NCBI RefSeq assembly: GCF_019649015.1
Contig: NZ_BLPI01000001.1
Span: forward strand, 1,383,501 to 1,447,500
Direction of reading: 5' to 3'
Source of the DNA: Agarivorans litoreus
Lineage (GTDB): Bacteria > Pseudomonadota > Gammaproteobacteria > Enterobacterales > Celerinatantimonadaceae
Length of the DNA: 64,000 nt
Shown: one piece after another, positions 5,085-26,926 of the stretch
Position numbering within the stretch: the stretch's first letter is position 1
Layout: the number at the start of each line of letters is the position of its first letter
Translations under genes and position numbers: made by a program
The notes under the pieces: generated by a model
What the model was told of the DNA's origin: nothing
The model's database searches: none
The model's input: only the letters and a program-made list of their open reading frames with translations

Positions 5085-5246
5085 ATACCAATCACACTAA
5101 GTGAGAGCTCAGAAATAGCGCAGGAAAAATACTCGAGAATAAGGCAGGATTTTTCGATAAGTAGTTATTCTACAATCAAAAATTCTAACGCAGTTATCGA
5201 GTATTTTAACCAGGTAGAATGAACAGTTACTTAGTACGATTGGTAT
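5085..5246. repeat. Palindromic repeat element, short form (MITE-like)
   Basis: The ends are inverted repeats, ATACCAATC (5085-5093) and GATTGGTAT (5238-5246), extended by ACACTAAGT against ACTTAGTAC. Inside, AAAATACTCGA pairs perfectly with TCGAGTATTTT over 11 bp. The centre is AAGGCAG (5141-5147), a GTAG-TTATT-CTAC hairpin (5161-5173) and TAACGCAG (5186-5193). The same centre occurs in the two larger elements near 25.4 and 25.8 kb, so they look like one family. The structure fits either a non-autonomous mobile element or a structured RNA. It contains no coding sequence. Confidence 0.8.
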
Positions 5247-22964: not shown

Positions 22965-25303
22965 TCATTGTGATTAAAGTCGGCAATGGCCTTGTCTAAT
23001 AGCTTCAAATCTTCTGGATAATCATGACTAAGTTGGTGGATCCAATCTTCAACATTATCCCACCATGCGGGTAACTCCGGCGATTGAATTTTGTTGGCTA
23101 AACGCTGGATTCTCGCTAAACCTATCGAGCCCGCAGCACCCTTAATTTTATGCGCCTCAGAGGCAATGCCATCCTGGTCTTTTGCAAACAAGTTACTCTC
23201 GAGTACTTTCATGTAATCAGGCATCACTTGCTTGAACAAATTGATGCTATCGTTAAGCACTTTTACCCCAATGGTCTCGCAAAACTGCTCAACTAAATCT
23301 AAATCTAAGATCGGCATAGAGCTGCGACTTAATGCCTGTTTAGGGTTTACTGCTGGCTCGACTTCTGGCTCTTCGCCAATCGCAAACACACGATTAAAAC
23401 AATGCACTACCGCATTGCGATTAATCGGTTTGTGAATAACATCAACCATGCCCGCTTTAGCAAATTCGCTTTTGCTGTTTACCACATTGGCGGTAAGGGC
23501 CACTAAAGGAGGTAAATGCTGCTTGGCGAATTGCTCCTGCCAACGTTTGGCAATATCAAAGCCAGTCATATCAGGTAGCTGAATATCTAGTAAAACCAAG
23601 TCGAAGTTATCAGGGTCAAATACTTCTAGCGCCTGCTCACCGCTCATGGCCACCTCAACATAGTGACCCAATTTTTCGAGAAGTGCTTTGGCTATGGTGA
23701 CGTTTAGCTCAACGTCTTCAACCAGCAGGATATCTAATGGAGGATGATCAATTTGTTCAGCTTCATCAGGAATAGCATCTAAAGTAACTTTTAGGGTAAC
23801 GGTAAAGCATGAGCCTTCTCCCTCTTTGCTGCTAACGCTAATGTCACCACCCATTGCACGAACTAGCTGGCGAGAGACCGACAAACCAATGCCGGTACCG
23901 GTTGCTGATTTACTGCCTTCTACTTGGTAGTACATGGCAAAAATCTCTTCCAACTGGTCTTTAGGAATGCCTGGTCCGGTATCTTCAATCATCAATTCAA
24001 GTTGCACTTCTTGCTCAGACAAAGGCTCGGCTTTTATGGTTAAAGCAACTTCGCCCTGCTCGGTAAACTTAACTGCGTTATGGGTTAAATTCCACAGCAC
24101 TTGGCGCAGGCGCGTTGGGTCGCCCATGATGCTATTGGGAATAGGACCAATTTGCTCAAAACGAAAATCTAAGCCCTTACTTTGTAACTGCATTTTAGTG
24201 AGCGTTTCAATGTCGGTAACTAAGGCTTTAAAGTCCATTGGCTCTAGCGACACCGCAAAGCGACGCCGGTCTAGCTTATCTAAATCAATAATATCGTTGA
24301 AAATATTACCCAGGGTAGTCGCACTCAATAAGATGGTATTTACGTGTTTGCGCTGGTCATCATTAAGTGGGGTGTCTAATAACATTTGGCTTAAACCCAC
24401 CACCCCATTAAGCGGAGTGCGCAACTCGTGGCTCAGCGTAGAGATAAACTGAGTTTTATCTCGATTGGCTTTCTCAATATTAGCTTGATGGCGCATTCTC
24501 TCGGTAATGTCTCGACCAAAACCTAACAAACCTAAACGGTTACCATTACGCCCATAAAATGGCACTTTACGCAGTTCAAAGAACGCTTTGCGCCCATCGG
24601 GATACTCTAACCACTGCTCGTAGGTAAGCGGCTTATCATTGTCAAAGACTTGGTGATCGGTTTCCACAATTTTATCAGCAATATCTTCCGGGTAAACGTC
24701 GTAGGGAGTAAGGCCAATAAGTTGCTTTTCAGAGCGCCCAACCAACTGCTCTAACGCTAAGTTACAACCGGAAAACTGGCCTTGCTCATTACGGTAATAC
24801 ACTAAGTCGGGAGAACTATCGATAAAACTACGTAACAAGGCAGAGTGTTCTTCCAGCTCTTGTTGCGCTTGTTGGCGTTGCCTTACTTCTTGCTCTAAGT
24901 TGGCCATGGCTTGGCCACGAGCAGCTTCGGCTTTCTCGCGCTCATCAATCTCATTATTTAGCTGGCTGATGTTGGCTTTAAGTTTATTGGTAAGCTGCAG
25001 GTCTCGCGAGCGCATTTTTTCGAGCTTACGGATCATCTTGCTTAAGCGTTGGCGCGAGTCTTCAATTTGCTCTACCACCACCGACATAAAAAACACCGCC
25101 CACGGCGTAATAATTAAACCAAAAAACACCGAGCGAACTAAATCCACCGACGACACCTGGCCAGTAAGCGCGAAGGTAACACTCATTTGGATTGCCAAAG
25201 CCACTAAAATAATGGCGCTAGCTAAGCTTATGGTAAATTTAACTACGCCCAATCGAGATAATAAATGAACGTAATAGGTGGCAAGATTTTTCAGTGGCGT
25301 CAT
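22961..25303 (-). CDS. arcB: Aerobic respiration control hybrid sensor kinase ArcB
   Basis: A 780-residue hybrid kinase with the ArcB plan. Two membrane helices lie within residues 20-85, followed by a coiled coil, a PAS domain (about 155-275), HisKA/HATPase with His292, a receiver with Asp573 and an Hpt domain with His718. These match the E. coli phosphorelay residues His292, Asp576 and His717. ArcB senses the quinone pool and phosphorylates ArcA. Of the two PAS cysteines used as a redox switch in E. coli, Cys180 is present but the residue at 241 is Phe. yhcC, an arcB neighbour in E. coli, lies nearby. Confidence 0.96.
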   Translation of the reverse strand: MTPLKNLATYYVHLLSRLGVVKFTISLASAIILVALAIQMSVTFALTGQVSSVDLVRSVFFGLIITPWAVFFMSVVVEQIEDSRQRLSKMIRKLEKMRSRDLQLTNKLKANISQLNNEIDEREKAEAARGQAMANLEQEVRQRQQAQQELEEHSALLRSFIDSSPDLVYYRNEQGQFSGCNLALEQLVGRSEKQLIGLTPYDVYPEDIADKIVETDHQVFDNDKPLTYEQWLEYPDGRKAFFELRKVPFYGRNGNRLGLLGFGRDITERMRHQANIEKANRDKTQFISTLSHELRTPLNGVVGLSQMLLDTPLNDDQRKHVNTILLSATTLGNIFNDIIDLDKLDRRRFAVSLEPMDFKALVTDIETLTKMQLQSKGLDFRFEQIGPIPNSIMGDPTRLRQVLWNLTHNAVKFTEQGEVALTIKAEPLSEQEVQLELMIEDTGPGIPKDQLEEIFAMYYQVEGSKSATGTGIGLSVSRQLVRAMGGDISVSSKEGEGSCFTVTLKVTLDAIPDEAEQIDHPPLDILLVEDVELNVTIAKALLEKLGHYVEVAMSGEQALEVFDPDNFDLVLLDIQLPDMTGFDIAKRWQEQFAKQHLPPLVALTANVVNSKSEFAKAGMVDVIHKPINRNAVVHCFNRVFAIGEEPEVEPAVNPKQALSRSSMPILDLDLVEQFCETIGVKVLNDSINLFKQVMPDYMKVLESNLFAKDQDGIASEAHKIKGAAGSIGLARIQRLANKIQSPELPAWWDNVEDWIHQLSHDYPEDLKLLDKAIADFNHND

Positions 25304-25348
25304 TAAGCCAGATTCCTTTTATAGCGCGAAGCAAGCTAAGCAAATGTT

Positions 25349-25612
25349 AGGGTCTGTTAATCTTTGCTGATGGTTTTTTGCAGCAATTTATTAGCCATTT
25401 AGGCAAGGCAGTGAGTGTACAGTTAAGTGGGCTTAATAATCACTCGCTAACGCTGAATAAATGGCTAAAAAATGCTGCCCGAAGGGTTCGGATAAGCGAA
25501 CTTTACTCTTTGTTAAGCAATTCTTGCTTAGCCCACTAGGCTTCTAAGTGCTCGCCGCGATTAAAGCCGCTTATCTCGAACAAAATTTCAACACCAAAGA
25601 TCAACAGACCCT
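25349..25612. repeat. Large palindromic element, copy B
   Basis: The ends AGGGTCTGTTAATCTTTG (25349-25366) and CAAAGATCAACAGACCCT (25595-25612) are inverted repeats with one mismatch in 18. Domain 1 has an 11-bp stem, TTAGCCATTTA (25391-25401) with TAAATGGCTAA (25458-25468), enclosing AAGGCAG and TAACGCTG. GCTGCCCGAAGGGTTCG follows at 25474-25490. Domain 2 is closed by GTTCG + GATAAGCG (25486-25498) against CGCTTATC + CGAAC (25568-25581). No coding frame or transposase is present. It lies between arcB and a related copy, both upstream of folE2. Confidence 0.85.
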
Positions 25613-25702
25613 AGCTAATTCATAAAATAAAGATGGTTAATATTAACCTAGCTTTTGTGGTATAACAGCCCATCTTTTTGTGTCATATAAATGCAATGAG
25701 CC

Positions 25703-25971
25703 CTAGGGGCTGTTTTTCTTTCGAGCTGATTTTTGCAGCCATTTGTGGCTTATTTATACAAGGCAGAAGCTTTAATGTGTAGTTAGTCTACATGAGAAGC
25801 TGATAACGCAGTAGAAATAAGCCACAAACGCTGCCCGAAGGGTTCGACTAAAATCGTTGTATGCTTTGTTAAGGCATGTTTACCTAGAATGCTAGGCTTC
25901 ACATTCCTTGCCGCGCCTAAAACGATTTTTTCGCGAACAAAATTTAACCGCGAAAGATAAACAGCCCCTAG
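25703..25971. repeat. Large palindromic element, copy C
   Basis: The same architecture as copy B with different bases in the stems. Ends: CTAGGGGCTGTTTTTCTTTCG (25703-25723) and its inverse at 25951-25971, one mismatch in 21 positions. Domain 1: TGTGGCTTATTT (25744-25755) with AAATAAGCCACA (25815-25826), enclosing AAGGCAG, a GTAG-TTAGT-CTAC hairpin and TAACGCAG. GCTGCCCGAAGGGTTCG is identical to copy B (25830-25846). Domain 2: AAAATCGTT with AACGATTTT, closed by GTTCG/CGAAC. The stems keep pairing although the bases differ from copy B. It ends 31 bases before the folE2 start. Confidence 0.85.
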
Positions 25972-26002
25972 CTCACGCATCCTGTTGTGGAGTACTAAGT
26001 GC

Positions 26003-26926
26003 ATGTCTACTGCAATGCCTGACGTAGCAAACTCAAGCCGCGCCCAAACCGAAGGAAAGCTCGATTGGGTAGGTATGAGCCAAATTGAAATGCCCATAAT
26101 GCTGGCATTTGAAGCACAAGCAGCTAGCCGCGTGAGTGCTAAAATTGAGGCCTTTGTCAGCTTAGATGACCCACAAGCCAAAGGCATTCATATGTCTCGT
26201 TTATATTTGATATTGGATCAATTATCTAACGAAGGCGTATTGGATTATGCTGGATTACACCGCGTTTTGGATCAGTTTATTGAAAGTCATCAAGATTTAA
26301 GTGAGCAAGCGCAGGTTCGCTTTAGCTTCGACTACCATTTGCGCCGTAAATCGCTGTTATCAGGCAAAACCGGTTGGAAGGCTTATCCCGTTGCAATCAC
26401 TGCCACTCGTCACCAACAACAAACCATTATTGAGCTTGAAGTTGAGGTTCCGTACTCATCCACATGCCCTTGCTCGGCCGCGCTATCACGCCAGCTTATT
26501 CAGCAGGCCTTCAAACAACAGTTTGCCGATGAGCAAGTTTCAAGTGAAGCGGTGCATCAATGGCTTGGCAGCAGTGAAGGCATAGTTGCTACACCCCACA
26601 GTCAGCGTAGTATCGCTCAGCTAAAAGTTAAAATTGCCACTGAACAGCAAGATATTCCCATAATCAGTTTGCTTGATGAAGTGGAAAGTAGTTTAAAAAC
26701 CCCAGTACAGGCGGCGGTTAAACGTGAAGATGAACAAGAATTTGCTCGCCTTAATGGGCAAAACTTGATGTTCTGTGAAGATGCAGCTCGCCGTTTACAA
26801 CACAGCTTAAATAGCCGAGCAGACTTAGTTGATTTTTGGTTAAGGGTAAACCACTTAGAAAGCTTACATGCTCATGATGCTGTAAGTATTGTAACTAAAG
26901 GCATTGAGCAAGGTTACAGCGCCTAG
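26003..26926 (+). CDS. folE2: GTP cyclohydrolase FolE2 (type IB)
   Basis: A 307-residue protein of the COG1469 family. Features include [15 protein letters not shown] near the N-terminus, [19 protein letters not shown] with the active-site Cys near residue 155, and a histidine-containing ATPHSQRS segment. FolE2 converts GTP to dihydroneopterin triphosphate, the first step of folate, pterin and queuosine precursor synthesis. Unlike zinc-dependent FolE it works with other metals and is often used under zinc limitation. GGAG lies 11 bases before the ATG. A large palindromic element sits immediately upstream, in what should be its promoter or leader. A terminator overlaps the stop codon. Confidence 0.94.

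Follow-up and report, generated by a model that had tools for sequence, protein, structure and literature searches.

A candidate portable hairpin arm in gene-less, TA-duplicating elements with ISSod6-like ends

MITEs are usually regarded as decayed transposons with an irrelevant interior. Those of bacteria named in the review PMC10969869 (ERIC, Correia/NEMIS, QMITE and MITEAba12) are described there as short and gene-less, with inverted ends, many copies, a mostly intergenic location and a stable fold, and the elements discussed here are like them in these respects. The second system that has to be considered is ISSod6, whose clade belongs to the IS5 family (NCBIfam NF033580 transpos_IS5_3; Pfam DUF4096 and DDE_Tnp_1). 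An 18-bp terminal repeat and a TA/YTAR-like target are common to ISSod6 and our elements; the difference is that ISSod6 is autonomous, about 880 bp long and has its own transposase.

The window, that is, the whole 64-kb stretch of DNA that was analysed, contains two elements, B and C, which are insertions of one gene-less, TA-duplicating element family, and a shorter, single-armed one (Table 1). The initial annotation had described two adjacent palindromes here. Both are present, with coordinates that agree to within 2 bases, and all the shared blocks and stem pairs which it named are found in B and in C. The two elements lie 94 bases apart and are 66% identical over 276 aligned columns. The open reading frame list of the window has no transposase reading frame inside either of them, and the interior holds no visible remnant of a transposase gene.

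Table 1. Coordinates of the elements and their parts in the 64-kb window
Feature	Position	Strand	Remarks
Element B	25350..25611	+	262 bp, GGG..CCC; 18-bp ISSod6-like terminal repeats; without gene
Left TA of B target duplication	25348..25349	.	
Right TA of B target duplication	25612..25613	.	
Arm I of B	25377..25480	+	R2 match, E 1.9e-15
CCC-GAA-GGG mini-hairpin of B	25478..25486	.	C-G/T-A change at base pair, 17/5 of 22 copies
Arm II of B (same arm, other strand)	25483..25585	-	R2 match, E 6.6e-8
Element C	25706..25968	+	263 bp; in G002, empty site in G001 and G004
Left TA of C target duplication	25704..25705	.	One extra C precedes
Right TA of C target duplication	25969..25970	.	
Arm I of C	25732..25836	+	R2 match, E 1.4e-19; among 38 arms behind R2
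CCC-GAA-GGG mini-hairpin of C	25834..25842	.	
Arm II of C	25839..25942	-	R2 match, E 2.2e-13; among 38 arms behind R2
Single-armed element, ends ATACCAATC / GATTGGTAT	5085..5246	+	162 bp; R2 E 2.1e-7, absent from R2 training
Arm of single-armed element	5126-5207		

That these elements move is evident from a comparison of the host genome (G000, the source of the window) with its relatives G001, G002 and G004. The site of B is empty in G002 (ATGTTAGCTAA), where C is present, and both sites are exactly empty in G001 and G004; thus the check for empty sites in close relatives, which had been proposed along with the annotation, succeeded for both elements. Since B is missing from G002 and C is not, B arrived after the split from G002 and C before it. 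The extra C at the left junction of element C occurs in both G000 and G002, the C copies of these two genomes differ at 2 of 267 positions, and the adjoining 930 bases are 96% identical.

The host genome is rich in such copies. Our core model R1, which was built from related copies (alignments to it lean toward its structure), has 124 matches there, of which 68 are distinct near-full-length places; the remainder consists of shortened copies, single arms and the opposite strands of copies already counted. A search for end-like sites returned 181, versus 18 for the reversed control pattern. Among 100 of these 181 sites there are short derivatives with both ends and without complete arms, which measure 59-187 bp and are all of different lengths. 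The pairs of closely spaced ends at L122, L128, L130, L131, L134, L135 and L138 are mostly internally deleted copies, and L128 has unrelated sequence between its two ends. At G000:C1:3099882-3100413 (L007, L008) two B copies stand head to tail with one TA common to both, and in a few copies the upper part of arm II is extended, by about 15 bases in L040 and about 47 in L181.

As for the enzyme, in a plasmid search the right end of B (37 bases, 86.5%) matched the terminus of ISSod6 carried by the megaplasmid of S. oneidensis, and TAGGGTCTGTTGATCTTT is the sequence of both ISSod6 ends and of the B consensus end (18 bp). Conjugative plasmids carry Vibrio IS5 elements with TAGGGCGTGTTGATCTTT, and the transposases of ISSod6-type IS5 elements match NF033580, DUF4096 and DDE_Tnp_1. 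Judging from the ends, the mobilising enzyme is probably an IS5-family transposase. The possibility of a non-autonomous element mobilised in trans, raised in the initial annotation, is borne out by the exact empty sites, the TA duplication and the ends common to IS5-family ISSod6. The covariation of the ends, also pointed out there, has to be read differently: AGGGTCTG and AGGGGCTG do agree, but such agreement is to be expected in any transposon and says nothing for a fold.

If the family is viewed as a MITE mobilised by IS5, it is indeed short and gene-less, with ISSod6 ends, TA duplication, empty sites and 68 copies; however, neither the ISSod6 protein nor NF033580 has a match in the same genome. 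No autonomous parent was seen among the lone-end loci fetched from it (100 of the 181 places on the end-pattern list). In other genomes, matches to the ISSod6 protein, some of them weak, occur in 15 of 60, and NF033580 matches 7 of 20 chosen genomes, leaving 13 without. An own transposase is unnecessary if the transposase comes and goes on plasmids. The ends of elements and of resident transposons were also compared. In G515 the element end TAGGGCCTGTTAACACTA and the end of a resident IS5-family element, TAGGGCGTGTTAACACTA, agree at 17 of 18 bases, in a version that for both differs from that of ISSod6; in G668 no match is seen between the element ends and those of the resident IS5. A further genome, G714 (L451, L470), has at least five equal-scoring copies of an IS5-family transposase that is split between two overlapping frames and perhaps produced by frameshifting.

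Folded as single-stranded DNA, B reaches -57.5 kcal/mol (z -7.6) and C -59.8 kcal/mol (z -8.5), and none of 200 shuffles of either folds as well. The earlier observation that the stems differ between copies while pairing holds extends to an alignment of 22 diverse cores with a 68-pair structure: 91.1% of cells are paired versus 76.5% in shuffles, there are 204 cells with two-sided changes versus 58, 44 of the 68 pairs have a change on both sides, and on none of five measures does any of 500 shuffles attain the observed value. Sliding the partners by 1-3 columns lowers pairing to 33-44% of cells, a control that is flattered because the structure comes partly from the same sequences. In a set of 65 best-strand rows that reaches beyond the class, 54 of the 68 pairs show at least three Watson-Crick types, each seen at least 2 times, and the most conserved letters are the unpaired CAAGGC (0.92-1.00) and AACGC.G (0.91-1.00), together with the CCC/GGG mini-hairpin (0.94-1.00). 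Strong computed covariation and conserved unpaired loops agree with the suggestion of the initial annotation that selection acts on a folded molecule, be it RNA or hairpin DNA.

The initial annotation could not show that both elements consist of the same hairpin repeated in inverted orientation, nor that this hairpin also occurs singly or with other ends. Reverse-complemented, the elements match the whole model as well (in L161, 226.8 and 127.3 bits), hence arm II is the opposite-strand version of arm I. The interior is therefore an inverted pair of one hairpin arm flanking a CCC-NNN-GGG mini-hairpin, and either strand is predicted to form the same four-stem cloverleaf.

Following up five weak R1 matches that cover arm I only revealed a further repeat, which has a single arm between ends ATACCAATC...GATTGGTAT. 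It measures 159-168 bp in 9 of the 10 copies in hand, has at least five further copies in the host genome, and blastn finds relatives of it in Vibrio, Photobacterium and Pseudoalteromonas replicons. For the arm model R2 we used 38 arms taken from two-armed elements (its E-values are rough); it finds the nine fetched ATACCAAT loci with E from 4.4e-10 to 1.6e-4, as well as two single arms of G522 that lie between ends TATAGTCAATTAAA (E 5.6e-12 and 7.3e-11). In the 64-kb window it has five matches at E up to 1, namely the four arms of B and C and the element at 5085-5246, and it has no match in the IS5 loci L182, L183, L184, L449 and L452. Two further single-arm loci have ends that are less clear: L487 is without convincing ends and L480 has a partial pair only. 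Taken together, the sequence and model comparisons show that the arm is a portable module, paired or single, which appears in elements with different terminal repeats.

The covariance-model search of related genomes that had been recommended with the annotation gave, at E up to 0.001, R1 matches in 165 of 394 genomes and 46 of 115 genera of the order; in the class sample matches were found in 47 of 369 genomes, 44 of them outside the order, and in the phylum sample in 56 of 398, 22 of them outside the class. Scans of more than 40 genomes used stricter filtering and scored few candidates per genome. Vibrio, Shewanella, Motilimonas, Alishewanella, Psychromonas and Algicola are among the hosts of the matches listed, and plasmid-borne matches come from Vibrio, Pseudoalteromonas, Catenovulum, Azotobacter and Halomonas. 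A blastn search with one Vibrio-type copy as query found no match in phage and E. coli collections.

Inverted ends flank the core in 18 of 20 distant loci, where elements measure 256-275 bp; in the two without visible ends, L404 stops at a contig edge and L418 is masked there. Predicted RNA folding of the 18 elements with ends gives -103 to -206 kcal/mol. Among 22 further distant loci, 20 measure 262-275 bp, the short ones being L439 (206 bp) and L398 (241 bp, at a contig edge). A frequent start of the ends in distant elements is TAGGGYCTGTT, and there are deviating ends, for example GAGCCTGTCTATGAATAAATC, GGAACCTCTGATTGG, TTACTAAGCCGAGCC and AACTCTGCACGAATGCC. The inverted-end score is 12-30 in 24 chosen loci versus at most 11 in 120 flank shuffles, and because R1 holds no ends, this score represents independent support. 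All the differing ends could belong to variants of one superfamily. On a Pseudoalteromonas plasmid (L369:1700-3004) an element end overlaps the annotated stop of an oxidoreductase gene.

Resident copies tell us something about when selection acts. In 54 B copies we counted as private any substitution to a letter present in at most 2 copies. There are 96 private substitutions in 156 paired sites, 48 in 60 unpaired sites and 55 in 52 end sites, and the odds ratio of paired versus unpaired sites is 0.77 (p 0.13, with modest power). Only 1 of the 96 changes at paired sites is compensated. Resting copies thus look nearly free to change, and the lineages that founded subfamilies look to have kept pairing. 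Given this near-absence of compensation, the fold seems to be selected during spread and not at rest, within the modest power of the test.

Based on this analysis, we propose that the arm, as a portable folded module, aids the propagation of mobile elements and is mobilised via IS5-type ends, to which we assign a probability of about 0.45. According to this proposal, single-strand exposure or supercoiling of the element, as in replication or excision, would let the arms fold and bring both element ends together. Folding would expose the unpaired CAAGGC and AACGCNG, a factor common to these bacteria or to their mobile elements would recognise these motifs, and recognition would raise the likelihood of completed transposition. 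Folding in the cell, promotion of transposition and reading by a common factor are what we infer from the sequences. In our opinion it is also quite possible, if doubtful, that the arm, as a module of roughly 80-105 nt spread across Pseudomonadota in elements with varied ends, is a signal for a widely shared factor; if so, one arm signal would serve several transposition systems at once. The short derivatives of scattered lengths, set against 68 near-full copies, count in favour of the folded module, and may be simple deletions. The absence of a matching transposase from the host genome and the mismatched ends in G668 count against a folded module moved by IS5.

Whether the proposed module folds as DNA or as RNA is difficult to judge. 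Pair types were counted in 97 best-strand copies, obtained from 150 aligned of 207 matches after dropping 47 second-strand and 6 identical rows. All 68 pairs give 5,711 Watson-Crick, 359 G-U and 101 A-C cells; the 59 pairs that are at least 80% Watson-Crick give 5,315, 52 and 85 of 5,642 cells. A low G-U count was considered as evidence for DNA and rejected, as it depends on dropping the 9 columns below 80% Watson-Crick, where 307 of the 359 G-U cells are found. When pairs are filtered in a similar way, the lean is to G-U in arm I and to A-C in arm II (p < 0.05 in 4 of 5 clusterings); for G-U versus A-C the wider, unfiltered set gives 151 versus 38 in arm I and 89 versus 70 in arm II, and for arm I by strand 151 versus 38 and 116 versus 45. 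Because the apparent G-U pattern is tied to the filter, the odds of a DNA mechanism are lowered, and the excess of G-U over A-C across all pairs does not favour DNA. Our preference is for folded DNA, given that one model fits both strands and that resting copies are not maintained.

RNA is nevertheless a serious rival, although we consider it unlikely. The arm would then act in a read-through transcript that binds a protein or RNA polymerase, for instance in polarity protection, so that hosts tolerate the insertions, and the inverted pair would supply one working arm per reading direction. The put RNA of HK022, for comparison, protects its operon from polarity. Covariation and conserved unpaired loops suit RNA equally, G-U cells outnumber A-C cells both across all pairs and, whichever strand is taken, within arm I, and insertions lie near gene 3' ends, at a median distance of 35 bases by crude gene calls. 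On the contrary, no internal promoter-like site beyond chance is seen, resident copies are hardly maintained, which is unexpected for an RNA that is useful at its site, and the genes around 59 of 64 copies show a near-random orientation (31 tandem, 15 convergent, 13 divergent). Nor is there an Rfam family: release 15 has no match in the window at the gathering cut-off, the B/C region and 16 distant loci give only weak matches below the cut-off at E up to 5, and five single-arm loci give none. The element of L417 adjoins a tRNA, the sole Rfam match above the cut-off there.

It is improbable that the interior is a mere spacer or a pair of terminators, its stable fold being nothing unusual for a MITE and serving to limit damage to neighbours. 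MITEs do commonly fold stably (for QMITE2 PMC10969869 gives about -113), and positions 25200-26100 hold five terminator-like patterns versus 1.1 expected in shuffles; however, in none of the five does a T run follow the end of a complete arm, and a spacer or terminator would need neither the invariant CAAGGC and AACGCNG nor an arm common to elements with other ends. Finally, it is very improbable that the covariation arose without selection through template switching, a known mutational process of imperfect palindromes that copies mutations between hairpin sides, since in the resident B copies, which are a natural control, compensation is near-absent, and since it would also erase the unpaired loops, yet these are the most conserved part.

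The folded-module proposal has, in our view, consequences beyond this locus. Here the conserved part of a MITE-like element is its interior, a folded arm that appears to be under selection across the phylum in elements with different ends. This makes testable the question of what reads the fold and whether it aids several transposases. Assays of mobility and binding could start directly from the 68 near-full copies, the empty sites found in sister species and the two covariance models, and the arm model would allow the annotation of elements that Rfam now misses.

With regard to known systems, a tentative analogy can be drawn to integron attC sites, REP hairpins and AAV terminal repeats, in which palindromic DNA is read as a folded strand and unpaired bases matter. 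In attC, the R and L boxes are bound by the integrase. Our literature search found no description of the B/C element, with the sequence of SonMITE_1 outside the comparison. SonMITE_1, a Shewanella oneidensis MITE (Romine et al. 2008) named in PMC10969869, could be a member or a relative of the B/C family. As far as ERIC, Correia/NEMIS, QMITE and MITEAba12 are described in that review, the present elements differ from them in that their interior is a covarying module with invariant loops, which is carried between different terminal repeats.
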